64,000 bases of DNA from Elusimicrobiota bacterium (lineage in GTDB: Bacteria; Elusimicrobiota; Elusimicrobia; UBA1565; UBA9628), in assembly GCA_027452025.1 (NCBI GenBank), contig DAIDHI010000065.1, positions 1 through 64,000 on the forward strand. Reading direction: 5' to 3'. Numbering within the stretch: position 1 is the stretch's first letter; each line of letters begins with the position of its first letter. The notes under the pieces are model-generated. The model saw only the letters and a list, made by a program, of their open reading frames with translations, did no database searches and was not told the origin of the DNA. Made by a program: the position numbers and the translations under genes. Below, in pieces: positions 1 through 12,962 of the stretch.

Positions 1-360
1 TAAAGCCCGTCGACCCGGCCAAGCCCGTCGAGCCCGTCAGACCGCCGACGCCGGTCAAGCCTTGCGCCCCCGTCGCGCCGGTGAGTCCCTCGAGGCCCGT
101 GTTGCCCGTGCCGCCGGCAGCACCCGTGGCGCCGGCGCTTCCGGTAGTGCCGGTCAGGCCCTGCACGCCCGTCTCGCCGGTAAAGCCCGTCGACCCGGCC
201 AAGCCGGTCGAACCCGTAAGGCCCCCGGCGCCGGTCAAGCCCTGCGCTCCCGTCGCGCCGGTGAGACCCTCGACGCCGGTATTGCCCGTGCCGCCGCCAG
301 CGCCCGTGGCGCCGGCGCTTCCGGTAGTGCCGGTCAGGCCCTGGACGCCGGTCTCGCCGG
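1..360. repeat. 180-bp tandem repeat inside collagen-like gene
   Basis: Positions 1-180 and 181-360 are two near-identical 180-bp units, both starting taaagcccgtcgacccggcc. A third unit begins at 361 but is shortened and drifts. Each unit encodes 60 residues, exactly 20 Gly-X-Y triplets. The copies differ mostly by silent changes and a few substitutions (for example GLEGLTG/GVEGLTG and GVGGLTG/GAGGLTG). The array continues past the left edge of the window, so the copy number is unknown. Confidence 0.9.
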
Positions 361-2098
361 TAAAGCCGGTCGCACCCGCCAGGCCGGTCGAGCCCGTGGG
401 GCCGGCGCCGCCCGTGGCGCCGGTCAGGCCCTGCACACCGGTCTCGCCCGTGAAGCCCGTCGCGCCGGCCACGCCCGTCGCGCCGGGGCCGCCGGTCGCG
501 CCGCTGACGCCCTGAACGCCGGTCGTGCCGGTGACGCCGCTGGCTCCCGCCGTGCCCGTGGCGCCGGCCGCGCCCGTCAGGCCCTGCCCGCCCGTCGCGC
601 CTGTCAGGCCCTGGACGCCCGAGGCGCCGGTCAGCCCCTGGTCGCCGGTCGGGCCCTGCGCGCCGGTGGGACCTTGCAGGCCCGTGCCGCCGGCGGGGCC
701 GGTGACGCCTTGCGGGCCGGTAAAGCCGATCGGACCGGTCACGCCGGTGGCGCCGACGCCGGTGGCGCCGAGCCCGCCCGTGGCGCCCTGCGGTCCGGTG
801 GAGCCCGTCAAGCCCTGCACGCCGGTGGCGCCCGTCGCGCCGTTGGAACCCGTCGTGCCGACGCCTCCGGTCGCTCCGGGCGGTCCGGTTTCGCCGGTGG
901 CTCCCGTCATGCCTTGGAGTCCGGTCGTTCCGGCGGGCCCGGTCGCTCCCGCGGGGCCCGTCGCGCCGGTGCTGCCTTGCAGGCCCGTCGTTCCGGTGAC
1001 GCCGCCGGCGCCCGTGGCGCCCGTCGACCCGGCGGGGCCGGTCACGCCTTGGGAGCCCGTTGCTCCGGTGGAGCCGCTTCCACCCGTCGGCCCGCTTCCG
1101 CCCGTCGGTCCTGCGGGTCCCGTCGGCCCTACGGGGCCGGTCGCGCCGCCGACGCCCGTGGTGCCGACGCCGGTGGCGCCAGCGGGTCCGGTCGCGCCGG
1201 CCGCTCCGGTGGCGCCGTTAAGACCGGTCGCGCCGGCCAGGCCCGTCGTGCCGGCCGCTCCGGTCGCGCCCGCCGCTCCGGTGGCTCCGGCCGGGCCGCT
1301 CGGGCCCATCACGCCGGTGGCGCCGATGGCGCCCGTAGTGCCCGCGCCGGCGGGCCCCGTGGCGCCGGCCGGCCCCATCGCGCCCGTCGCGCCCGACGGT
1401 CCCGCGGGACCGGTGGCGCCGGCCGGGCCCGTGCCCGAGCCGGATCCGACCGGCACCCAAGCGGCTCCGTTGTAGACCTGCAGCTGGCCGAGGTCGGAAC
1501 GATACTCCACCATGCCGGTCGCGCCCGGGACGACGTCGGAGGTTTGGCTGGCGAAGACGATCGTGGAAGCGAAGACGCCGTACGGGGCCGTCGCGCCCGG
1601 CCCGAGCTGATCGGCCACGAGGGCATGGAGGGAATATCCGACGGCGGCGACCTGCTCGCGCGGAGTCAGCGTTTCGCAGGGCGCCACGCAGGACGGGCCG
1701 CTGTAGCTGATGCCCGTGCTGTTGCTGTGAGGTTGGACCGACACCTCGAGGTAAAGCGTCGCCGTGTTGAAGACCGACGCCGGGAGGGCTTGATGCGTGC
1801 CGATCTCGACGGTGTAGATGCCGTTGGCGACGGAGACGCCGCTGCCCGTCGTCGTTCTGTCCCAGACCTCCGTATAGAGGACCGTGGCGCAGCCGTTGTC
1901 GGCGCAAAGCCGGAATCCAAAGTCGTAGTTGCCCGTGAGCGGATTGCCCGAGGAATCGGCGAGCTTGCCCTGGTAGTTGAGAAGCTGCGGCACGGCGGCC
2001 GAGGCCTCTTGGGTCAAGGCCGGCAAAGACGAAAGGGCCAAGCACGCCGAAAGCGTGCAGGCCAATCCGCGGCTAAACCAGGAGCGCTGCCGTTTCAA
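1..2098 (-). CDS. Secreted collagen-like (Gly-X-Thr repeat) protein, 3' end outside window
   Basis: The frame is open from a TTG at 2098 through position 1, about 699 codons without a stop, so the C-terminus lies outside the window. The N-terminus (MKRQRSW..., hydrophobic core, ASAA before [11 protein letters not shown]) looks like a signal peptide. Residues about 36-215 form a globular head that begins with the NYQGKL-DxxGNPL pattern seen in many secreted or surface proteins. From about residue 220 the protein is an almost unbroken Gly-X-Y collagen-like tract with Thr or Ala often in the Y position ([13 protein letters not shown]). No ATG is available, because an in-frame TGA at 2122-2120 closes the frame upstream; TTG is therefore the likely start. 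A surface fibre or stalk role is inferred, not shown. Shadow frames on the plus strand are long only because of the repeats. Confidence 0.85.
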
Positions 2099-2210
2099 GT
2101 TGATCTCACAACCGGTCCGTCAATGAGTCCGATCGCTTCTTTTTAGCCGATTCATGCGAAATTTTTATTACGAGGCCGCGACGAAACCCACAAATAAAAA
2201 ACGGTCCTCC

Positions 2211-2325: not shown

Positions 2326-3462
2326 ATGCGCCTCTCTTACGACGACTTGGTTCGGCAGTATCTGGAGACCCTCAACGCGAAGCTGCGCAATTTCGCCGTC
2401 GAGCCGGAGTTCGTCGCTACTTGGGTGCATGACGAAGACGATCACCGCAGCCTCTACGACCTTTTCGTCGCCGCCCAGGGCGGCGGCTGCCGCGACCTGA
2501 CCGTCGTGGTCGGCGCCGAGCGGGCGGCGCGGCTGGACGCGGCTCGTCTCGATAAGGAGTTGGGCGTGCTGGGAGCGCCGAAGATCGCGCGCGGCCCGGA
2601 CGGAACGCTCGAAGTGGCCGTCGCGCTCAAGGACAAGGTGGACTTCGTGCCCGGCCGGGAGGTCGCGGCCGCGACGCGCAAGAGCCAGGCCTCTGGCGGC
2701 GTCCGCGCGTTCAAGCGCCGCGAGGTCCCCGCAGGCGAGATCGACCCCTCCTATCGAGCCGGGATCGAGTCGCGCAAGATCCGCTTCGAGGGCGCCTTGA
2801 TGGACGCGACGGTCTCGGTATCGGACGGCGGCGCGACGCTCTGCGTCGTGCTGGGCGAGGGCGGCGTCGTGGCGAAGGCGAGGCACTCGGGCGCCGCGGG
2901 TGCGCTGCGCGCGCTGCTCGACGTCCTCTGCGAGGTCATGGAAGGCCGCCCGCTGCAGGAGGCCGCCGATCACGCCGTCATCCGGATGGAGGCGTCGCTG
3001 CGGGACCGCTCCGTGCCCGCGCCCGTCGAAGGGCTGCTGACGCCGCGCACGGCGGGAAGCCTCTTCGAGGCGCCCGAGCGGCTCGTGCGGGTCCTCTACC
3101 GGGAGCGCGTCGCCAAGACGGGCGAAAAGGCCGGCTGGAACTACTGGGACGACGCCGCGGCCGAGGCCTGGGGCGCGCTGCCGGAGGCCCGGAAGCTCGA
3201 GAAGGCCAAAGCGGCCGTCGCCGAGGCCGCCCGCGCGCTGGGCCTGCCGCCCGAGGGCATCGAGGTCGTGGAGGTCATGGGCGGCGTGCGCGTCGTTCTC
3301 GCGCACACGACGGTCACGGCGCAGACCGCCTTCGGCGCGTCGATGATGAGGATCGAGGGACTGGTCAAGAAGGCGCTCGATGCGCGCATCGAGCTGCAAC
3401 TCGAGAGTCTGGAAGACAGGAACCGCCGCGCGCAGCGAACGGCGCGCACCGGCAAGGTCTAG
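2326..3462 (+). CDS. Hypothetical protein, 378 aa
   Basis: I do not recognise the family. The protein is soluble in appearance, with no signal peptide or membrane segment, and is rich in Ala, Arg and Glu. It has an N-terminal segment rich in aromatic and acidic residues (YDDLVRQYLETL, WVHDEDDH), a central region with beta-strand-like stretches (LCVVLGEGGVV) and a basic C-terminus. It is a single gene, divergent from the collagen-like gene and convergent with the radical SAM gene 3 nt away. The ATG is chosen because a TATAAT box sits 6 nt upstream. Codon use matches the neighbours, so it is likely a real gene. Confidence 0.75.
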   Translation: MRLSYDDLVRQYLETLNAKLRNFAVEPEFVATWVHDEDDHRSLYDLFVAAQGGGCRDLTVVVGAERAARLDAARLDKELGVLGAPKIARGPDGTLEVAVALKDKVDFVPGREVAAATRKSQASGGVRAFKRREVPAGEIDPSYRAGIESRKIRFEGALMDATVSVSDGGATLCVVLGEGGVVAKARHSGAAGALRALLDVLCEVMEGRPLQEAADHAVIRMEASLRDRSVPAPVEGLLTPRTAGSLFEAPERLVRVLYRERVAKTGEKAGWNYWDDAAAEAWGALPEARKLEKAKAAVAEAARALGLPPEGIEVVEVMGGVRVVLAHTTVTAQTAFGASMMRIEGLVKKALDARIELQLESLEDRNRRAQRTARTGKV

Positions 3463-3465
3463 CCG

Positions 3466-4596
3466 CTAGACGAAGTTGAGATGCTGCGGGGGCTCGCCCT
3501 GCGGCTGCTCCAGCTCGATCTTCCCTTTCATGTAGCCGTCGAGATACTCGTTGACCTTGTGCTGGAGGCAAAGGCTTCCGCACATCTTCTGGGCGTTGAA
3601 GCTCGGGCCGGCCAGGTAGTTCATCACTTCCCAGTAGCGGTCGCCGAAGACGATGTCCTTGAAGCGCTCCTGCGTGATGTTGCCGATGTGGAACTTCTTG
3701 TACTTCTCGTTGAAGAGCATGCCGCAGGGAGCCACCAGGCCCGAGCCTGAGAGCTGGATCATGAAGGGCGGCCCGTAGCAGCGCTGATAGCTGCGCTTGC
3801 CCTCGGCCTGGATCTTGGACCACTTCACGACGACTTTGTATTCGTCGTCCGAGAGGGCTTCCGCTTCGCGCAGCTTGTCGTAGAGCTTCTTGTAGCCGGC
3901 GTAGTCGACGCCGAGGAAGCCGTCCTCGTTGTCGCTGCAGTGCTTGATGACCAAGTAGTCGGGACGCAGCTCCTTGCCGAGACGAGCCAGCGGCATGATC
4001 TGGTCCTCGTATTGGGGCATGAGCACCATCTGCAGGCCGATGGTGACCTTGAGCCCGAGCTCCTTCTTGATGCGGACCATGTCGCGGATGTTCGAGATGA
4101 CCTGGTCGTAGTAACGCTCGGGCACGCCCATGATCTCGGCGTAGCGCTGGCGCTCGCCGGCCGTGATGTTGACGCGCAGGTAGGTCAGGTGCGGCAGGAC
4201 CTGCCGCAGCTTGTTCTCCGTGAGCACGTAGGCGTTGGTGCCGCAGGCCATGGAGATGCCGAGCTCGCTGCCGCGCACGACGCTGTCGATGAAGACGGGC
4301 GAGATCGTGCTTTCCCCGTCGGAGACGAAGCTGATCGCCTTGACGCCGATCTCGGCGCAGTCGTCCAGGAAGTTGGACATCACCTCCTTGGTGATCGGGT
4401 AGCGCTCGTTTTCCTGCATCATGGCGTAGCAGTAGTGGCAGCCGAAGTTGCAGGCGCGTGTCAGCGCCATGTCGATGGTGATGGGCGCGATGCGCTCGCC
4501 GCGGGCCCAGGCCGCGATGCGGTCCTGGTGCCAGGCGATCTTCGTGCCGTCGAGGATCAGCTTGGTGTGCTCTTGGGCCAGGGAGGAAGTGGACAT
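3466..4596 (-). CDS. Radical SAM/SPASM-type enzyme
   Basis: The 376-residue protein carries the radical SAM Cx3Cx2C motif at C49, C53 and C56 (ACNFGCHYC), which binds the SAM-cleaving 4Fe-4S cluster. A second set of cysteines lies in the C-terminal part (RCYGPP, APCGML, MCGSLC), arranged like a SPASM/twitch auxiliary cluster domain. Members of this superfamily modify peptides, sugars or cofactors; the substrate cannot be read from sequence. The gene lies 54 nt downstream of the E1 beta gene on the same strand and may belong to the envelope or sugar cluster that runs from 8935 down. A TAAACT box 15 nt upstream of the ATG could instead give it its own promoter. Confidence 0.85.
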   Translation of the reverse strand: MSTSSLAQEHTKLILDGTKIAWHQDRIAAWARGERIAPITIDMALTRACNFGCHYCYAMMQENERYPITKEVMSNFLDDCAEIGVKAISFVSDGESTISPVFIDSVVRGSELGISMACGTNAYVLTENKLRQVLPHLTYLRVNITAGERQRYAEIMGVPERYYDQVISNIRDMVRIKKELGLKVTIGLQMVLMPQYEDQIMPLARLGKELRPDYLVIKHCSDNEDGFLGVDYAGYKKLYDKLREAEALSDDEYKVVVKWSKIQAEGKRSYQRCYGPPFMIQLSGSGLVAPCGMLFNEKYKKFHIGNITQERFKDIVFGDRYWEVMNYLAGPSFNAQKMCGSLCLQHKVNEYLDGYMKGKIELEQPQGEPPQHLNFV

Positions 4597-4650
4597 ATTA
4601 GGTCTCGAATCAGTTTAACAGAGAGCCGGTCGGTTTGCCAGTCGCATTCC

Positions 4651-5691
4651 TTAAAAGGGGCCGATATAGGCTTCCTGGCGCGGGCCGCTTGAGGCGACCT
4701 TCCTGCCGACCTTGCGCCCGAGAGTCCGCTCTACGGCGGCGACGATCTCGCGCGTCCCGGGGTAAAAGAGCGGCTCCAGGGCCGCGCTCGTGGGCGCCGG
4801 GTAGTCCGGAAGGGCGACGCGCGCCACGGGCGCCTTGAGGTAGGAGAAGCCCTCCTCCGCGGCGAGGGCGGCGATCTCCGCGCTGACGCCGCAGGTCTTC
4901 CACGAGGTGTCCAGCACGACCAAGCGGCCGGTTTTCTTGAGGGACTTGAGGATTAGGGCTTTGTCGAGCGGCTTGACCCAGCGCGGGTCGACGATCTCCG
5001 CGTCGATCCTGCGCGCCTTGAGAGCTTCGGCGGCCGCCAGGGCCTCGGAAACCATCAGGGAGACGGCGACGATGGTCACGTCCTTGCCTTTGCGCACGAC
5101 GGCGCCCTGGCCGGGCCTGACGGTATAACGTTCCTCGGGCACGGCCGCCTTGACGTCATGAAGCCGGCGGTGTTCGATGATGACCACCGGGGCGTTGCCG
5201 GAGACGGCCTGCAGGAAGACGCCCTTGGCGTCGTAGGGCGTGGCGGGGACGGCTACTTGGATGCCGGGCAGATGGGCGAAGAGCGCCTGCAGGCTTTGGG
5301 AATGCTGCGCCCCCTGGCCCCAGCCCTTGCCGACGATGGCGCGCACGACTATCGGCGCGCGCATGACGCCGCCGAACATCGCGTGCCACTTGGCCGCGTG
5401 ATTGGCGAGCTGGTCCATGCAGTAATAAAGGAAATCGTTGCGGGCGTGCACGAGGACCGGCCGCAGGCCGCCCAGGGCGGCGCCGATGGCCAGGCCCGTG
5501 AGAGCGTTCTCCGAGGCGGGCGTGTCGAAGACGCGGGAGGGCCCGAAGCGGCGCGCGGCCTCCTTTGTGGTGCCGAAGATCGCCTTCGGGTCGTCGACGC
5601 CGATGCCGTAAACGAAGACCCGCTCGTCGGCCTCGAGGGCCTGCACGGTGGCCTCGCCCACGGCCTGGGCGTAGGACAATTCCCGGGTCAT
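4651..5691 (-). CDS. TPP-dependent 2-oxoacid dehydrogenase E1, beta subunit
   Basis: The 346-residue protein matches the beta subunit of pyruvate/acetoin/branched-chain dehydrogenase E1 (transketolase pyrimidine-binding and C-terminal domains): SYAQAVGEA near the start, VYGIGVDDP, FDTPASENALTGLAIGAA, and a C-terminal half with VDPRWVKPLD. The start overlaps the E1 alpha stop by 4 nt (ATGA), so the two subunits are translationally coupled. No E2 acyltransferase or E3 lipoamide dehydrogenase is nearby. The pair instead follows a nucleotidyltransferase-kinase fusion, which points to a carboligation or decarboxylation step in a biosynthetic pathway rather than a classical complex. That role is inference. 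Confidence 0.85.
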   Translation of the reverse strand: MTRELSYAQAVGEATVQALEADERVFVYGIGVDDPKAIFGTTKEAARRFGPSRVFDTPASENALTGLAIGAALGGLRPVLVHARNDFLYYCMDQLANHAAKWHAMFGGVMRAPIVVRAIVGKGWGQGAQHSQSLQALFAHLPGIQVAVPATPYDAKGVFLQAVSGNAPVVIIEHRRLHDVKAAVPEERYTVRPGQGAVVRKGKDVTIVAVSLMVSEALAAAEALKARRIDAEIVDPRWVKPLDKALILKSLKKTGRLVVLDTSWKTCGVSAEIAALAAEEGFSYLKAPVARVALPDYPAPTSAALEPLFYPGTREIVAAVERTLGRKVGRKVASSGPRQEAYIGPF

Positions 5692-6665
5692 GCCTTGGCG
5701 CCCTCAAGATCGAGCGAGCCGGGAAACGGGCTTTTCTTGGCGAACGCCACGGCGGCTTCGACCTTTTCCAAGATTCCCTCGCGGATGAGCCGGCGCTGCT
5801 CCTTGGGCAGCGCCCCGGCGGCGTCGAGTCCGGCCTCGAAGCGCTTGATCGGGTCGGCGGCCATCCAGCGGCGCACTTCGGCTTCGCTGCGGTAGCCCAT
5901 GTCCCAGTCGAAGTTCGGCCCCACGTGCTCCCGCCAGCGGTAGGTCGCGCACTCGAGGAAGCTCGGGCCGCGGCCCTGACGGGCTCTGGCAACGGCTTTG
6001 GACGCGGCGTCGTAGACGGCCAGGACGTCGTTGCCGTCGAGAGCCTGGGCGGGGATGCCGGCGGCCTCGGCGCGCCCGGCGATGGGGATGGAGGGCTGGC
6101 GCCGCGAGATCGGAGTGCAGGTGGAGAGGCCGTTGTTCTCGCAGACAAAGACGACGGGCAGGCTCCAGAGCGCGGCCAAGTTCAAGCTTTCCGAGAAGGT
6201 CCCCTCCTCGACGGCGGCGTCCCCGAAGAAGCAGACGGCCACGCCGTCTTGCTTTTGCTGCTTGAAGGCGAAGGCGGAGCCGCAGGCGATCGGAATCGAG
6301 GCCGCGAGCAAGGCCGAGGTGCCCATCAGGCCGGCTTGCGGGTCGACGAGGTGCATCGAGCCCCCGCGGCCCTTCGTGCAGCCCGTGGCCTTGCCGTAGA
6401 GCTCGGCGATCATCTTGTTGAGATCGCCGCCCTTGGCGATGTAGCCGGCGTGGCAGCGGTGCGTCAGAAAGACGGTGTCGTCCTTTCGAAGATTGGCGCA
6501 GACCGCGGCCGGGATCGCTTCCTGGCCGATGGAGAGGTGCGTCGGGCAGCGCATCTCCTGCTCGGGGTAAAGGGCGGCGATCTTCTCCTCCGCCTCGCGG
6601 ATGAGCGTCATCCTGGTAAAGAGGTCCTTGAGCAGGGCGGCGGGGCGCCCGGAGCAGTCGATCAC
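5688..6665 (-). CDS. TPP-dependent 2-oxoacid dehydrogenase E1, alpha subunit
   Basis: This is 325 aa when started at GTG 6665, whose GTGA overlaps the stop of the upstream fusion gene. That length is usual for acetoin-type E1 alpha. The family features are RxAEExIAxLY, HLSIGQEAIPA, the GRGGSMH segment and the TPP/Mg motif ending in CENN. The motif reads GDAAVEEGTFSE, with Ala where the consensus GDG has its second Gly. E1 alpha and beta form an alpha2beta2 enzyme that decarboxylates a 2-oxoacid on TPP. Co-translation with a sugar-nucleotide-like fusion suggests a glycan precursor pathway. Confidence 0.88.
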   Translation of the reverse strand: MIDCSGRPAALLKDLFTRMTLIREAEEKIAALYPEQEMRCPTHLSIGQEAIPAAVCANLRKDDTVFLTHRCHAGYIAKGGDLNKMIAELYGKATGCTKGRGGSMHLVDPQAGLMGTSALLAASIPIACGSAFAFKQQKQDGVAVCFFGDAAVEEGTFSESLNLAALWSLPVVFVCENNGLSTCTPISRRQPSIPIAGRAEAAGIPAQALDGNDVLAVYDAASKAVARARQGRGPSFLECATYRWREHVGPNFDWDMGYRSEAEVRRWMAADPIKRFEAGLDAAGALPKEQRRLIREGILEKVEAAVAFAKKSPFPGSLDLEGAKA

Positions 6666-8197
6666 TTGAGCATCGCCGTCAGGAACTTGAACAGCGGCGC
6701 GGCCTCGATGGGCGTGCGGTTGCACACGGTCCCGACCTTCATGGCGCCGGCGGCGTTGCCGACGAAGGCGGTCACGTCGATGGGCAATCCCCCCGCCGCG
6801 CACAGCGAGGCCAAAGACAGATAAGCGTCGCCGGCTCCGACGCGGTCGACGACCTTCGAGGAAAAAACGGGGATCGACGTGAAGCCCTCCTTGCGCGAGT
6901 AGGCCAGCGACCCCTTGTGGCCGCGGGTGACGATCATCTGCTCGGTCCTCAGCTGCTTGGCGACGTCGAGCAGCAGCGTCTCGACGGGTCCGTGGCGATC
7001 GCGCGTGGCCATGCGCAGTTCGGGCTCGTCGATGCAGGCGAGGTGCGCCTTGGGATACTTGGTGATGACGTTGTAGCCGATGTTGGCGCTGTTGGTCTGC
7101 GTGTTGACGCAGAGAAAGCGCGCCTCGTGGCACAGCAGATCGACCGCGCGGGGGCCCAGCATGCCGTGGCCGTAGTCGGTGACGAGGACGAGATCGAACT
7201 TGGGCAGCTCGGCCTCCAGATGGCGCAGCATCGGCGCCTCGACTTCGGCCGGCAGTTCCTTGTCGCTCAAATACGAGACCTCGAACATCTTGGTCAGGAA
7301 GGCGGGATCGACGAAGCGGCGCTTGATGATCGACGAGGCGCCCTTTTGCAGAAAGAACTTGGGCTTGACGTTGGGCTTGAGGCGGCTGCGGATGAAGGCC
7401 TCCCGGGAGTCTTCCTGCCCTAGGCAGGCGACGAGCTGCACCTCGGAGGCGAAGCCCGACAGGTGGTTGGCGGCCGCAAGCGACCCTCCGGCGAAGGCCT
7501 CCGCCTCGATGAAGCGCGTGGAGACGATCGTCTCCTTGGGCGACTTGCCCATGGCCTGGCAGTAGTGGTATTCGTCGACGATCGCCTCTCCGACGACGAG
7601 CACCTTGAGCTTGCGCAGCGACTCGACGCTTCGGATGATGGAATCGGACGAATGCCGCTTGGAAAAGGAGTCGAGGAAGGCGCGCGTATCGGGCGGATAG
7701 ACGCCGAAGTGCTGGTTGAGCAGCTGCGTCGAGCTCAGCATGGGCTCTTCGGTGATGACGAGCTTGGCGCCGACGGACTTGGCGGCTTTTTCCTCCTGCC
7801 TGATGCCGCCCGTGACGTCCTTGTCGTGGTCCTTGTAGTCGTTGCCCTTGACGTAGAAATGGGGCCGGATCTTGCGGATCGCCTCGACGGCCGTGGGCGT
7901 ATCGTTGATCGCCACGTAGTCGACGCAGCCCAGCGCCGCCAGGGACTCGGCGCGCAGCTGCTGGGGGAAGACCGGCCGGCCCGGCCCCTTGTTGACGTAC
8001 TCGTCTCTGGTGATCGTGACGACGAGGACGTCGCCGTGGTGCTTGGCCGCTTGGAGGTGCCTGATGTGGCCGGGATGAAGGAGGTCGAAGACGCCGTGGC
8101 AGTGGACGATCTTGAGCCTTTTTGCGCGCGCCGTCTTGAGGGCCTGCGCGAGCGCGTCGAGGCTCAGGACGCGCGACCGGCTGCCGTTGGAGGCCAT
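6662..8197 (-). CDS. Nucleotidyltransferase-PfkB kinase fusion (HldE-like, reversed order)
   Basis: The 511-residue protein has an N-terminal cytidylyltransferase-like domain (about 28-165; CHGVFDLLHPGH carries the HxGH motif, then VKGNDYKDHD). A C-terminal PfkB/ribokinase-type sugar kinase domain follows (about 190-505; AGGSLAAANHL substrate site, DRVGAGDAYLS catalytic Asp and anion hole). HldE/RfaE of LPS heptose synthesis has the same two activities but with the kinase first; here the order is inverted. It probably phosphorylates a sugar phosphate and activates it as an NDP-sugar. It sits 12 nt downstream of a glycosyltransferase gene and overlaps E1 alpha by 4 nt, so these genes are one operon. 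Confidence 0.87.
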   Translation of the reverse strand: MASNGSRSRVLSLDALAQALKTARAKRLKIVHCHGVFDLLHPGHIRHLQAAKHHGDVLVVTITRDEYVNKGPGRPVFPQQLRAESLAALGCVDYVAINDTPTAVEAIRKIRPHFYVKGNDYKDHDKDVTGGIRQEEKAAKSVGAKLVITEEPMLSSTQLLNQHFGVYPPDTRAFLDSFSKRHSSDSIIRSVESLRKLKVLVVGEAIVDEYHYCQAMGKSPKETIVSTRFIEAEAFAGGSLAAANHLSGFASEVQLVACLGQEDSREAFIRSRLKPNVKPKFFLQKGASSIIKRRFVDPAFLTKMFEVSYLSDKELPAEVEAPMLRHLEAELPKFDLVLVTDYGHGMLGPRAVDLLCHEARFLCVNTQTNSANIGYNVITKYPKAHLACIDEPELRMATRDRHGPVETLLLDVAKQLRTEQMIVTRGHKGSLAYSRKEGFTSIPVFSSKVVDRVGAGDAYLSLASLCAAGGLPIDVTAFVGNAAGAMKVGTVCNRTPIEAAPLFKFLTAMLK

Positions 8198-8209
8198 GTC
8201 AAGGAGAGC

Positions 8210-8935
8210 TTATCTTTTTTCTGCGAAGATTTTATTTCGACGAGGCGAATGGCAGTCGATCCAGAGGTCCTTGAGCGTAGCCAAGACGCTCGCGATGTTC
8301 TTGACGCTCACCGCCTTGGAGCGGCCGCTTTGGCGGTACTGGAGCGGGATGGTCAATTGAACGTGAGAGTGGCCGCGCTTGAGGAGCGTGACCAGGATCG
8401 CCGCCATGTAGGCGAAGCCGTTGGTGCGCACGCGCACGTCAGAGACGAGCCGGCGCCGCAGCAGGCAGGGTCCGTTGTAGTAGTCGATCTTCAGGCCGAA
8501 GAGGACGTTGAGGAAGTTCACGAAGGCCCGCGACACGACGCGGCGGCCCCACGGACGCTGCTCCTGGCCGCTGAGCGACGGGATGATGAGGTCGGCCTTG
8601 CCCGCTTCCCTCAAGAGGGCGACGATGGCGTCTTGCGAGATCTCGTTGTCGCCGGGGACCATCATGGCGTAGTCTTCCGTCGCCCGGTCGACGCCCGTCC
8701 AGTAGTTGTAGCCCAGGCCCATCGTGCGCGGATTGTGGACGACGCGCACGCGCGCATCTGCGGCGGCCAGGGCGTCGGCAATGGCCCCTGTTTTATCCGC
8801 GGACCCGTCGTCGAAGACGTAGACGCCGCAGGGCAGGCCGGCTTTTTCGGCGCTGGCCAGGCAAGCCTCCACGGCGCTGCGGACGTTGGCTTCCTCGTTG
8901 AGAGCGGGAATGATGAAGGCGACGGAAGGGACCAT
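8210..8935 (-). CDS. Family 2 glycosyltransferase
   Basis: The 241-residue GT-A protein resembles dolichol/polyprenol-phosphate sugar transferases. It has FIIPALNEEANVRSAVE at the N-terminus, FDDGSADKTG for nucleotide binding, MVPGDNE in place of the usual DxD, and YYNGPCLLRR in the acceptor region. The C-terminal tail is basic, and no clear membrane helices are seen. It is 12 nt upstream of the nucleotidyltransferase-kinase gene, so it may transfer the sugar made by that operon. The ATG at 8935 is preceded by TACACT with an 8-nt gap, so this is probably the head of the transcription unit. Confidence 0.85.
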   Translation of the reverse strand: MVPSVAFIIPALNEEANVRSAVEACLASAEKAGLPCGVYVFDDGSADKTGAIADALAAADARVRVVHNPRTMGLGYNYWTGVDRATEDYAMMVPGDNEISQDAIVALLREAGKADLIIPSLSGQEQRPWGRRVVSRAFVNFLNVLFGLKIDYYNGPCLLRRRLVSDVRVRTNGFAYMAAILVTLLKRGHSHVQLTIPLQYRQSGRSKAVSVKNIASVLATLKDLWIDCHSPRRNKIFAEKR

Positions 8936-8952: not shown

Positions 8953-10548
8953 TTAATGACGCGCGGCGGTCAAGACGGAGGCGGCCGCAAGGAAATCGGA
9001 GGCCCGATAGAGGCGATTTTCCACCGGGAAGGGCAGCTCCCCGTCCCGGATCATGTGATACTGGAACTCGTTGCTGAACTCTTGGAAGCTGGTGCTCTCG
9101 ACGCCGGGCACCGGGAAAAAGGGGGTGCGGCCGTCATAGATGCGGCGGACGGGGATGTCGAAGCGCTGCGGCGGAAGGAACCCGTTCCAGAACCACGGCG
9201 AAAGGTCGCTGACGAGGACCCAGCGCCGGCCTTGGGAGACCTCCCGCCTGAGGTCCGCCATGCTGCCGACGCGGGGCTGGCGCCCGGGTTCGTAGTTGTA
9301 GGGAATCGACGGGCCGACGATCACGGCCGGCCCCCCTCCTCCGTGGGCGGCGATCACCGCCTCGATCGCCTGACCCGCATGAAACGCCAGCCAGGTCCGG
9401 CGCAGCCGTCCCTCGTTGAAGAGCACCAGCGCCAACGCCAGGGCAACGGCCGCGGGCAGACGCGCTTTGGCCGGGGCGAGGTCGAGAAGGGCCTTGGCGC
9501 CCAGGCCCGCCAGCGGAAACAGGGCGATAACGGCGGGTAAACAAGTGCGCTCGAGCTTGATGGTGCTCGGGGCCTGGGCGAAAGCCAGCGAGGCCGCGGG
9601 CAGGACCAGCCACGGCCAAGTCCGAGGCTCTTTGAGACGTCGCGCGAGGGCCCCCCCCCCGATCAGCGAAAGCGCGCCGAGCGCGGCCGCGAAGGCCGGG
9701 GATTCGCAGGTGCGCAGCAAATCGAGGAAATAAAAGCCCGCGTCGCGAAACGTCCGCGGCACTCCCTGGGCGGCGTGGAATTGCCAATAAAGGGTCTCCC
9801 AATAGTGATGCTTCGGGATGGCGAAGGTGAAGGCTTCAAGGGTCGCTAGAATCGCCGCCGCGCCGGCCGAAAACGCCGTCGCGGCGCGCCACGGCCAACG
9901 CCGCTCGCGCACGGCCCCGGCGGCCAGCCACGCGGCCCAGGCCAGGCCCAGGGCGGCGAGCATCGGCGCCATATGGTAGCTCGACAGCAGAGCCGCGCCC
10001 CAACAAAGTCCGAAAAGGAAGACCCGCCCGCTCGGGGCGGCCGGCGGCCCCGACACCGTCCAGAGGCCGGCGGCGAGCCAAAGGAAGGCCTGTCCTTGCC
10101 AGGAGTGGCCGCCGTAGAGGGCCTGCTGTAGCGCGACGTTGGAGCCCAAGGCGAAGCCGGCGAAGACCACTCCGGCCGCGAGGCCTCCGTCGCCGCGGGA
10201 AAGCGCGGCCTGGACGAGCGCCATGAGGAGGATCACGAAAAAGCCGGTGAAGAGCTCGTAGCCGACGTGATCGCCCGGCAGCCCGCACAGGATCGCCGCC
10301 GACAGAAGGCCCGACTGGAGGGGCTTGGCGCCGGGATCCGAGGCGACGGCGCAGAGCCAGCCCAGCGGCCCGCGCGCGTTCCATCGGGCGACGGGCTCCA
10401 GGGCCTGGGACAGCTGCTCGCTCGGGTCCGAGTTGTCGAAAGCGCGCGTGCCGGTGTCGAGCCAGAGCCGTCCGGCCCACCAGAGAGCCGGGACCAGAAG
10501 ACAGGCCGCGAAGGCGAGGGCGCCTCGCCTGGCCGCGCCCGAGCTCAA
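8953..10548 (-). CDS. Polytopic membrane protein, GT-C-like
   Basis: The 531-residue protein has about ten hydrophobic segments over its first 380 residues, followed by a soluble C-terminal domain of about 150 residues (VIVGPSIPYNYEPG, WVLVSDLSPWFWNG). An acidic motif follows the first helix (DTGTRAFDNSDPSEQ), a layout found in GT-C glycosyltransferases such as PMT/ArnT-like proteins. No family-defining motif is certain. The ATG overlaps the stop of the TMTC-like gene by 4 nt, so the two are co-translated and probably act together on lipid-linked sugars or surface proteins. That function is inferred. Confidence 0.7.
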   Translation of the reverse strand: MSSGAARRGALAFAACLLVPALWWAGRLWLDTGTRAFDNSDPSEQLSQALEPVARWNARGPLGWLCAVASDPGAKPLQSGLLSAAILCGLPGDHVGYELFTGFFVILLMALVQAALSRGDGGLAAGVVFAGFALGSNVALQQALYGGHSWQGQAFLWLAAGLWTVSGPPAAPSGRVFLFGLCWGAALLSSYHMAPMLAALGLAWAAWLAAGAVRERRWPWRAATAFSAGAAAILATLEAFTFAIPKHHYWETLYWQFHAAQGVPRTFRDAGFYFLDLLRTCESPAFAAALGALSLIGGGALARRLKEPRTWPWLVLPAASLAFAQAPSTIKLERTCLPAVIALFPLAGLGAKALLDLAPAKARLPAAVALALALVLFNEGRLRRTWLAFHAGQAIEAVIAAHGGGGPAVIVGPSIPYNYEPGRQPRVGSMADLRREVSQGRRWVLVSDLSPWFWNGFLPPQRFDIPVRRIYDGRTPFFPVPGVESTSFQEFSNEFQYHMIRDGELPFPVENRLYRASDFLAAASVLTAARH

Positions 10549-12830
10549 CGGCTCTTTCTCCAGCAGTGCGCGTTGCCGGCCATGGAGGGTTCGAGCCGGA
10601 CGGCCTCGCTGCAGAAGCGATCCGCCTCGTCGAGGCGCCGCTGCGTCGTCAAAAGTATCCCCAGGTTGAGGAAGGCATTCGCCGCTTTGGGGTTGAGGCG
10701 CGCGGCCTCGCGGTAGTGGCCCTCGGCTTCCGAGAGCCGTCCCATCGACTGGAGCACGAAGCCGAGATTGAAGTGGGCGTTGGCGAAATCGGGTTTGAGC
10801 TGCGCGGCGCGGCGGAACTCCTCGGCCGCGGCGGGCAGGTCCCCTTTCTGGACCAGGGCGAAGCCCAGATTGTAATGGGACTGGGCGTCCAGGGAATCGA
10901 TGGCCAGGGCGCCTTTGAACTGCGAGACGGCCTCATCGAAGCGGCGGGCCTGCAGCGCCTTCATCGCCGCGGCGACATAGCCGGCCTCGGTCGTCTTGCG
11001 GGCTTGCGCGACGGGGGTCTTGGCGGCGACGGCCGCCTGCGCGTCGGCCAGCCCCCGCGTCGCCGTCGGCTCCTTGGGGGCGATGCCCAGAGTCGCGCGG
11101 TATTCCTGCGCGGCCTCGGGGAAGTCCCCCTCGCGCGAGAAGAAGTAGCCCAGGTTGTCGTGGACCTTCGTTTGGTTGGGCGCCAGTTGCTCCGCTTTCT
11201 GGGTCTCGGCGATGGCCTCGTCGAGCAGGCCGCGGCGGCTGAAGAAGTAGCCGAGGTTGAAGTGGGCGTCCGAGTCGTCGGGAGCGGCCTCCAGGCCGCG
11301 GCGGGCCAAGGCCCAGGCGGCCTGGATTTGCCCCAGGTTCTCGTAGGAGATCGCGCCGTTGGCCAGCGCCAGCGTGTAATCCGGCTTGATGCGCAGGGAA
11401 GCCAGGGCGTGGGCCAGGCCTTCGGCGTAGCGGCCGTGGTCGTTGTAATAGACGGCGAGGTTGTTGTGGCAGAAATAGCAGTCGGGCTCGACGGCCAGAT
11501 TATGCAGATAGACCGTTTCGGTATCGTGCCAAGTGCGGGTCTGGAAAAAGGAAAGGACGGCCAGCGCGGCCAGCACGGCGGCCGCCGCCTGCGCGAGGCG
11601 CTCGCGATTGAAGGCGGGGTTCTGCAGCGCCCAGAGGAGCGCGCCGCCGGCGACCAGACCCCAGACGGCCGAAGCCAGGTAATACCACTTGTCGGCGGCG
11701 ATCTGCAGCATCAGGCCGTACTGCGACAGGCCCAGCATCGGCGAAAGCGCCACGACGTGGGCCAGCCACGCGGCGAGCAGCCATGGATGGCGCTTGCGCA
11801 GGGCCAGCGCGGCCGCCGTGATCGCCAGCGCGAGGACGGTGCGCGGAAGGCAGAGATCGTCCCAGGGGCTCAAGTGCGGCGGCAGCGAGTAAAACGGCGC
11901 CAAGCCGATCGGCAGGAGCGTTTTCTCCAGGTAGAACACCACCCCGAAGAAGGCTTCGCCCAGCCGCTGCCCGATGCCGAACTTGGCCACGGGAACCATC
12001 GCGCCGAAGACGACGCGCCCCTTGGCGGCCATGTAGGCGGATGCCGCGGCCAGGACGAAGAGCGGAATCTTCTCGACGATCAGCGGCGCGATCTCCTGCC
12101 GGTCGAAGCGGCGCAGGCGCTTGAGCGGGTACCAGTCGGCGATGAGCAGCGTCGCCGGCAGGGTCATGGCGATGCTCTTGGACAACAGCGAGAGCGCGAA
12201 ATAGAAGGCGCAGGCGGCCATCTGCGCGTTTTTCGAGGCCAGCCTCGAGCCGTGCGCCTTGAAGTAGGCGTTGAGCGCGAGAATGTAGAACAGCCCGGGC
12301 AGGACATAGGAGCGGTTCGAGGCCCAGGCCACGACTTCCACGCGCTGCGGGTGGATCGCGAAGAAGAGGGCTGCGAAGGCCGCGCTCCAACGCAGCAGCG
12401 GCTCCTGCCCCGACTGGGGCTCCAAGCAAAGGCGCAGCACGCGCACGGCCAGGAAATAGAAGGCGGCGCCCGTCAGCGACATCAGGATGATGTTGGTGAG
12501 GTGATAGCCGGCCGGGTTCATCCCCCAGACCAGATACTCCAGGGCGTGAGTCACCCAAGCCAGGGGCTGATAGACGCCGCCGAGCTGGAAGCCGGTGAAC
12601 ATCCACTTCAACTGCGCCGGGCCCAGGCCGCGATAATTCTGGTTCTTGAGGAAATTGAAGTCGTCGTCGAGCATCAGGAACTTCGCCCGCAGCGCCGGCA
12701 GGAACGGAAGAGCGGTGACGACGGCGACGGCCCAAGGCAGCCAGGGGCCGGGGCGCCGCGCCCACTCGGGCCAGAGGCGCGCGGATTGGCCGGCCGAGGC
12801 CGGGCTCGTGGTCGGGGCGGTGGCGGGCAT
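10545..12830 (-). CDS. TMTC-like membrane protein with C-terminal TPR repeats
   Basis: The protein is about 761 aa from ATG 12830. The N-terminal half is polytopic and begins with a lumenal-type acidic motif after helix 1 (LDDDFNFLKNQNYRGLG), then QPLAWVTHALEYLVWGMNPAGYHLTN. This is the pattern of the DUF1736/TMTC-type GT-C family, whose animal members O-mannosylate cadherins. The C-terminal half (from about residue 435) holds roughly nine TPR units (LAVEPDCYFCHNNLAVYY, DAHFNLGYFFSRRG, SHYNLGFALVQKG). An upstream in-frame extension exists to 12887, but it lacks a better start. A GT-C glycosyltransferase of periplasmic acceptors is the best guess. Confidence 0.8.
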   Translation of the reverse strand: MPATAPTTSPASAGQSARLWPEWARRPGPWLPWAVAVVTALPFLPALRAKFLMLDDDFNFLKNQNYRGLGPAQLKWMFTGFQLGGVYQPLAWVTHALEYLVWGMNPAGYHLTNIILMSLTGAAFYFLAVRVLRLCLEPQSGQEPLLRWSAAFAALFFAIHPQRVEVVAWASNRSYVLPGLFYILALNAYFKAHGSRLASKNAQMAACAFYFALSLLSKSIAMTLPATLLIADWYPLKRLRRFDRQEIAPLIVEKIPLFVLAAASAYMAAKGRVVFGAMVPVAKFGIGQRLGEAFFGVVFYLEKTLLPIGLAPFYSLPPHLSPWDDLCLPRTVLALAITAAALALRKRHPWLLAAWLAHVVALSPMLGLSQYGLMLQIAADKWYYLASAVWGLVAGGALLWALQNPAFNRERLAQAAAAVLAALAVLSFFQTRTWHDTETVYLHNLAVEPDCYFCHNNLAVYYNDHGRYAEGLAHALASLRIKPDYTLALANGAISYENLGQIQAAWALARRGLEAAPDDSDAHFNLGYFFSRRGLLDEAIAETQKAEQLAPNQTKVHDNLGYFFSREGDFPEAAQEYRATLGIAPKEPTATRGLADAQAAVAAKTPVAQARKTTEAGYVAAAMKALQARRFDEAVSQFKGALAIDSLDAQSHYNLGFALVQKGDLPAAAEEFRRAAQLKPDFANAHFNLGFVLQSMGRLSEAEGHYREAARLNPKAANAFLNLGILLTTQRRLDEADRFCSEAVRLEPSMAGNAHCWRKSR

Positions 12831-12962
12831 GGGGCTTGGCGCGGCGACGCGCGCATAGTGTATACCGGAATTTCCCCGAAGGGTCAATACCTGGGGCGAC
12901 CCTGGACACGAGGCCGAGACTTTCTTAACATCTTGTCGTTGCTGCAGGCCTGGGGGCTTTCG

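Follow-up and report, generated by a model that had tools for sequence, protein, structure and literature searches.

A lone pyruvate dehydrogenase E1-like gene pair in a conserved activated-sugar module of Elusimicrobiota and other diderm bacteria: a candidate two-carbon carboligase

Introduction

Pairs of pyruvate dehydrogenase (PDH)-like E1-α and E1-β subunits lacking E2 and E3 partners have been proposed to transfer the two-carbon unit of pyruvate to C4 of a sugar (PMC4802897, PMC4425429, PMC4753412). The described examples are AviB1/AviB2 of avilamycin biosynthesis and Pau11/Pau12 (= Plm8/Plm9) of paulomycin biosynthesis, for which attachment of the two-carbon (C2) branch of eurekanate and paulomycose is proposed (PMC4425429, PMC4802897). 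Gram-negative bacteria are stated to use a single flavoprotein, YerE, instead of a lone E1 pair (PMC4753412), and the literature that we consulted documents lone E1 carboligases acting on sugars only in a few actinomycete antibiotics. Here we analyze a lone E1-α/E1-β gene pair in a 64,000-nucleotide stretch of an Elusimicrobiota bacterium genome (the window; contig C65:1–64000 of a 3.25 Mb assembly in 105 contigs). The pair lies within a five-gene minus-strand run (3466–8935) together with genes for a family 2 glycosyltransferase (GT2), a nucleotidyltransferase-PfkB kinase fusion (NTK) and a radical S-adenosylmethionine (SAM) enzyme; family matches bear out this composition, which had been read from the sequence in the original prediction. 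We put at roughly 60% the probability that the pair is a stand-alone, thiamine pyrophosphate (TPP)-dependent C2-carboligase in an HldE/GmhA-like activated-sugar pathway, following the logic proposed for AviB1/AviB2.

Like the window genes, AviB1/AviB2 and Pau11/Pau12 are E1-α/E1-β pairs without E2 or E3 inside a sugar cluster, and the lengths of Pau11/Pau12 (325/345 residues) are close to those of the window pair (325/346 residues), the comparison being one of lengths. The AviB and Pau pairs, however, belong to actinomycete antibiotic clusters and dTDP-hexoses, whereas the window pair accompanies an HldE/GmhA-like module and a radical SAM enzyme in diderm and environmental genomes. YerE, of yersiniose biosynthesis, is a single-chain TPP flavoprotein that places an acetyl branch on a 4-keto-3,6-dideoxyhexose; the proposed C2 transfer to a keto-sugar is common to both, and several lone-E1 loci carry a DegT protein of the His type, as in 3,6-dideoxysugar routes. 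In contrast, the window enzyme is of the two-subunit E1 type, from another TPP family, and its module has Lys-type DegT proteins and NTK.

The HldE/GmhA pathway to ADP-heptose has in common with the module a SIS isomerase, a PfkB kinase and a nucleotidyltransferase, and HldE, like NTK, joins kinase and nucleotidyltransferase in one chain. The domain order of NTK is nevertheless reversed with respect to HldE, in which the kinase is N-terminal (NTK residues 5–160 match HldE 317–468), and NTK reaches only 162 of the 521 bits of the HldE equivalog; a plain HldE heptose synthase was rejected on both counts. The module also differs from the ADP-heptose pathway in its epimerases, an extra TPP enzyme, DegT and the radical SAM enzyme. 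The closest known kind is the lone E1 carboligase of the actinomycete octoses; the window pair stands with another activation pathway and in diderm bacteria.

Conservation of the sugar module around the E1 pair

A scan of genome contigs with the NTK alignment gave 584 pattern matches, with at least 545 NTK-related stretches among the matches listed; the loci studied (numbered L) are the best 80 of these, from Omnitrophota, Elusimicrobiota, Magnetococcales, Acidobacteriota, Planctomycetota, Nitrospinota and others. With four loci from relatives and the window itself they make up 85 neighborhoods, 83 of which hold an NTK homologue (none lies within the DNA fetched for L020 and L021). Genes for an NAD epimerase (upstream), a GmhA-like SIS isomerase, a second short-chain dehydrogenase/reductase (SDR), DegT aminotransferases, often in tandem, and radical SAM enzymes recur around NTK, and the TPP enzyme at these loci is either E1-α/E1-β or a split transketolase. 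Homologues of GT2 are close to NTK at 16 of 84 fetched loci.

Among 160 genomes sampled from the phylum to which the window belongs, orthologues of the radical SAM enzyme, NTK and E1-α were found in 8, 19 and 28 genomes, respectively. In seven of the eight genomes with the radical SAM gene, NTK lies no more than 10 kb from it on one contig; in the remaining genome, E1-α is found within 3 kb. E1-α also lies within 7 kb of NTK in 10 of the 19 genomes that have NTK. Chance adjacency was rejected by this phylum-wide linkage. The closest annotated plasmid relatives of E1-α include that of Azospirillum oryzae KACC 14407, an isolate (L119), in which the genes stand in the order epimerase, SDR, NTK, SIS, SDR, E1-α, E1-β, DegT, DegT, 'hypothetical', radical SAM, NUDIX and glycosyltransferases; the radical SAM protein of this row is the orthologue of the window enzyme. 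The conserved neighborhood of fusion, E1 and radical SAM genes on which the original prediction depended therefore extends, complete, to an Azospirillum plasmid, and the assignment of the E1 pair to an activated-sugar module is well supported by this linkage. Our literature searches found no description of an E1-NTK module. Lone-E1 gene pairs occur in diderm bacteria of many phyla, in a module whose gene content makes clear sense and whose hosts include at least one isolate.

The window pair as an additional, probably E2-independent E1

Both subunits have the E1 fold with its TPP-binding and catalytic motifs (Pfam E1_dh, Transket_pyr and Transketolase_C). The α subunit matches E1_dh (2.9e-71) and not Transketolase_N, PF00456 being found in other loci only, and the AlphaFold2 core of E1-β matches PDH E1-β (1w85_B) with template modeling scores of 0.89–0.95. 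Both subunits fall under the NCBIfam cut-offs, E1-α with 305.7 vs 393.85 bits for the PDH model and E1-β with 290 vs 321 bits for its subfamily.

Since the pair shares its fold and TPP/His motifs with PDH E1, it might still be a component of a 2-oxoacid dehydrogenase that borrows E2 and E3 from elsewhere in the genome, its position in a glycan operon being incidental. The sole E2 gene of the genome, on contig C88, is, however, already provided with an E1 pair and an E3 of its own (gene order E1-α, E1-β, E2, E3, lipB, with lipoyl synthase upstream; names read from translations), so that the window pair is an additional E1. Neither the window operon nor any of the 85 neighborhoods contains an E2 or E3 gene, the association of E1 with sugar genes is kept in different phyla, and the lone E1-β proteins form a separate clade with a tail ending in GPF (see below). 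We consider such borrowing highly improbable, and a dehydrogenase role was rejected on the position of E2/E3 and the E1-β tree. The original prediction had argued against a dehydrogenase complex, naming beforehand E2/E3 linkage in relatives and unconserved neighbors as refuting it; both points were examined, with E2/E3 found apart from the pair and the neighborhood found conserved, and the claim is well supported. A third E1-α/E1-β pair is present in the same genome (L116, G000:C82, 5900–7461), with no E2 gene adjoining it.

In the E1-β tree all 29 lone E1-β proteins fall on one side of a branch with 100/99 support, opposite the five that are linked to E2 or a lipoyl protein; branch support for the lone E1-α group is weaker (91/91). 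A tail of ~20–40 residues closing in GPF is present in 23 of the 28 lone E1-β proteins with a readable C-terminus (by our count), with the consensus [FY]xGPF-COOH and the variants GPY and GHF occurring once each. The tail is absent from L041, L045, L050, L056 and L122, which form one subclade, and also from the five E2- or lipoyl-linked proteins. It has a low predicted local distance difference test (pLDDT) score (41–51) and is disordered in the model of the E1-β monomer. The E1-α subunits differ in a loop that reads YRWREHVGPNFDWDMGYR in the window enzyme vs R[HY]RGHSKSD in the E2-linked Rhizobium and Aminobacter proteins; many lone enzymes have YRWREHxGPxxDxxxGYR, and the tail-less Omnitrophota/Elusimicrobia subclade has YRWKGHVGPxCDxxKGCR. 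Judged from these sequences, the lone E1 is a distinct family, with an E1-β lineage and a tail of its own. In two Magnetococcales loci (L088, 12913–14982; L111, 15014–17080) E1-α and E1-β are fused in one open reading frame (ORF) of ~689 residues ending in FTGPF.

Exchange between E1 and split transketolase

Among the 85 neighborhoods, 25 have E1, 32 have a split transketolase, none has both, and 28 have neither, several of the latter being cut by contig ends; the E1 call at L062 is weak. If the loci were independent, the absence of overlap would have a hypergeometric probability of 4e-7, a value that is a rough guide only because the loci are related. On a tree of NTK from 57 loci, the state changes between E1 and transketolase 11 times by parsimony, with at least 7 changes forced by the starred branches, and near-sister loci can be of opposite type (L086, with E1, and L077, with transketolase; likewise L088 and L079). 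The two TPP enzymes have thus been repeatedly exchanged in a common module, and this swapping of places with a transketolase suggests that the E1 pair adds a two-carbon piece to a sugar. The TPP-dependent carbon–carbon chemistry on a sugar that the original prediction put forward would be in keeping with both this interchange and the published lone-E1 systems. In wps-2, an exopolysaccharide cluster of Actinoplanes missouriensis, split transketolase N and C genes occur with two DegT genes (PMC13390465); in these genes it resembles the transketolase type of the module, with a transketolase where the window has E1.

The mutual exclusion and repeated interchange would also suit a role for E1 at an early step, as a substitute for transketolase that places a C2 unit, e.g. 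from hydroxypyruvate, on an aldose phosphate. The resulting ketose phosphate would feed the SIS isomerase and NTK, and E1 would supply the carbon skeleton without adding a branch; the SIS gene is indeed frequent in both locus types (13/25 with E1 and 17/32 with transketolase). The genome, however, already holds a split transketolase, on contig C47, the accessory genes of the two locus types are not alike, and lone E1 genes are also found beside a His-type DegT at loci without NTK. An early role is therefore unlikely in our estimation, although it deserves serious consideration.

A later action, on a keto-sugar, would agree with those DegT proteins. The lone E1 at Azospirillum L121/L131 (and L120) and at Solidesulfovibrio L122 has as its neighbor a DegT with a histidine in place of the lysine that binds pyridoxal phosphate (PLP), which we take to be the mark of ColD/RfbH-type 3-dehydratases. 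The Azospirillum plasmids with this DegT type are those without NTK. There, E1 would follow a 4-keto-3-deoxysugar enzyme, the same logic as in yersiniose biosynthesis but with a different TPP enzyme. The DegT proteins at the NTK loci examined keep the PLP lysine and are aminotransferases by motif.

A proposed pathway for the lone E1 module

We infer each reaction of the following pathway from gene content, conservation and sequence features. NTK, with a GmhA-like SIS isomerase encoded elsewhere, would phosphorylate a ketose-derived sugar phosphate and convert it to a nucleotide sugar, as HldE does. Keto and amino forms would then be made by the two SDR epimerases and the DegT aminotransferases. 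E1 would decarboxylate a 2-oxo acid, most likely pyruvate, and pass the C2 unit to the sugar carbonyl and not to a lipoyl-E2, in parallel with the action proposed for AviB1/AviB2 and Pau11/Pau12. The radical SAM enzyme and the product of ORF2326, a convergent neighboring gene, may then carry out a further modification of the sugar, possibly in the way that DesII acts following its DegT partner, and GT2 and two membrane proteins would hand the sugar to a surface acceptor.

Several observations weigh against this assignment. The SIS, epimerase and DegT genes do not adjoin the window operon, although the genome does hold them: SIS genes are on other contigs, and epiB, epiA and two DegT genes lie together on one strand of contig C103 (7449 bp), which speaks for the assignment. 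The accessory genes also separate the locus types, a pair of HAD-like and APH-like genes being found at 19 of 32 transketolase loci vs 1 of 25 E1 loci, and DegT being commoner at E1 loci (14/25 vs 9/32); the E1 and transketolase thus need not catalyze the same step. In addition, a 1-deoxyketose made from pyruvate would not be isomerizable to an aldose by a GmhA-type enzyme, so that a different donor would be needed if the step were an early, chain-building one. E1-type and transketolase-type loci probably give related but different sugars. The HAD-like (DFDNT motif) and APH-kinase-like pair was seen at L063, L064, L080, L094 and others, and on C103 a small nucleotidyltransferase-like gene pair (5256–6028) lies between epiA and epiB (L143, G000:C103, 1744–7448).

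Alternatively, E1 might make a free aldehyde or carboxylate from a 2-oxo acid, or acylate a non-sugar acceptor, so that the sugar is not extended and the product decorates a glycan later. On a Streptomyces griseofuscus plasmid (L118, 14007–16053), a lone E1 pair with the tail belongs to a cluster of polyketide type that has γ-butyrolactone regulators and no sugar genes within the 29 kb shown, as this alternative would have it; the NTK, SIS, epimerase and DegT neighbors, however, are all sugar-acting, and we regard it as very unlikely. Going beyond C2 transfer by the window pair, it is conceivable, and we propose only tentatively, that there is a widespread pathway in which E2-independent, mostly [FY]xGPF-tailed E1s are exchanged with split transketolase beside a reversed HldE-like fusion, varying the C2 extension of an amino-heptose-like sugar that the radical SAM enzyme and ORF2326 product then reshape. 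The transketolase swap and the GPF tail offer direct entry points for biochemical work and for the discovery of new surface sugars, branched or long-chain.

The radical SAM enzyme and ORF2326

The CxxxCxxC motif of the radical SAM enzyme comprises C49, C53 and C56, and four further cysteines (273, 291, 339 and 343) are arranged toward the C-terminus as for one auxiliary cluster. All seven (three plus four) are invariant across 16 radical SAM sequences, and the Pfam SPASM score lies just above the cut-off (22.7 vs 21.5 bits). The best PDB profile matches of the family include DesII (5e-12) and, for the C-terminal part, BtrN (2e-9), radical SAM enzymes that act on amino sugars or aminocyclitols and to which the window enzyme has this profile likeness; MoaA and PqqE score nearly as high, and the window enzyme reaches 35.9 of the 450 bits of the DesII equivalog, far under its cut-off. 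A second radical SAM protein, 25–29% identical to that of the window and with the same seven invariant cysteines, occurs beside NTK/SIS at L033, L040, L050 and L056 (Omnitrophota and Elusimicrobia), where it adjoins the genes for SIS and the TPP enzyme.

ORF2326, whose end is separated by 3 nt from the stop codon of the radical SAM gene, was overlooked in the original prediction. Its homologues stand beside the radical SAM or E1-β gene at L020, L021, L022, L100 and L106, and the 'hypothetical' gene directly before the radical SAM gene in A. oryzae L119 is also a homologue (28% identity). As this pairing is kept even in Azospirillum, ORF2326 belongs to the module. The protein has no match in Pfam or PDB profiles; the best Foldseek matches of its model (pLDDT 64) are IscU/SufU, at E values (0.012–0.02) that are not significant, and an IscU/SufU-like domain is a weak possibility.

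Gene arrangement in the window

The features of the locus are collected in Table 1. Down the minus strand from GT2 to the radical SAM gene, the spacing is 12 nt, a 4-nt overlap (GTGA, NTK/E1-α), a 4-nt overlap (ATGA, E1-α/E1-β) and 54 nt, which agrees with the predicted tight packing of four genes; E1-α most likely starts at the GTG at 6665, overlapping the NTK stop. In NTK, the CTP_transf_like domain (residues 34–129, 3.4e-14) precedes PfkB (198–492, 7.1e-17), and the catalytic motifs HGVFD/HPGH and GAGD are all intact. No transmembrane segment was found in GT2 by a Kyte-Doolittle scan.

Table 1. Coordinates of the E1 locus and its flanking genes in the window
Feature	Position	Strand	Basis
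ORF2326, 378-residue protein, no known family	2326..3462	plus	convergent with radical SAM gene
Radical SAM enzyme	3466..4596	minus	PF04055 4.1e-14; SPASM 1.3e-4
E1-β, 346 residues	4651..5691	minus	PF02779 Transket_pyr 3.4e-28; PF02780 Transketolase_C 1.8e-39
E1-β C-terminal tail, past the PDH core, ends EAYIGPF-COOH	4654..4713	minus	
E1-α, PDH-E1-α-like TPP subunit, 325 residues	5688..6665	minus	PF00676 2.9e-71
NTK, nucleotidyltransferase-PfkB kinase fusion	6662..8197	minus	CTP_transf_like and PfkB domains
GT2, family 2 glycosyltransferase, 241 residues	8210..8935	minus	PF00535 1.8e-19
Membrane protein, 531 residues, ~8 hydrophobic segments	8953..10548	minus	hydropathy; 17 nt before GT2
Membrane protein, 780 residues, C-terminal tetratricopeptide repeats (TPRs), TMTC-like layout	10545..12887	minus	TPR families only; hydropathy

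The two membrane-protein genes overlap by 4 nt and lie upstream of GT2 on the same strand, so that the operon may hold seven genes. The 531-residue protein has no match in Pfam or NCBIfam and is a candidate membrane glycosyltransferase.

At the start of the window (1–2119, minus strand) is a gene, cut by the contig start, for a secreted collagen-like protein, and a second member of this kind adjoins the DegT and epimerase genes on contig C103. Although its genes thus adjoin both halves of the pathway, the collagen-like Gly-X-Thr protein was not adopted as the glycan acceptor, since its N-terminal domain occurs together with NTK in 4 of 23 genomes (of the 160), with ~2.7 expected. The window protein has this N-terminal domain of its own and at least 156 G-X-Y triplets, in which Y is mostly threonine (49/82 in the longest run).

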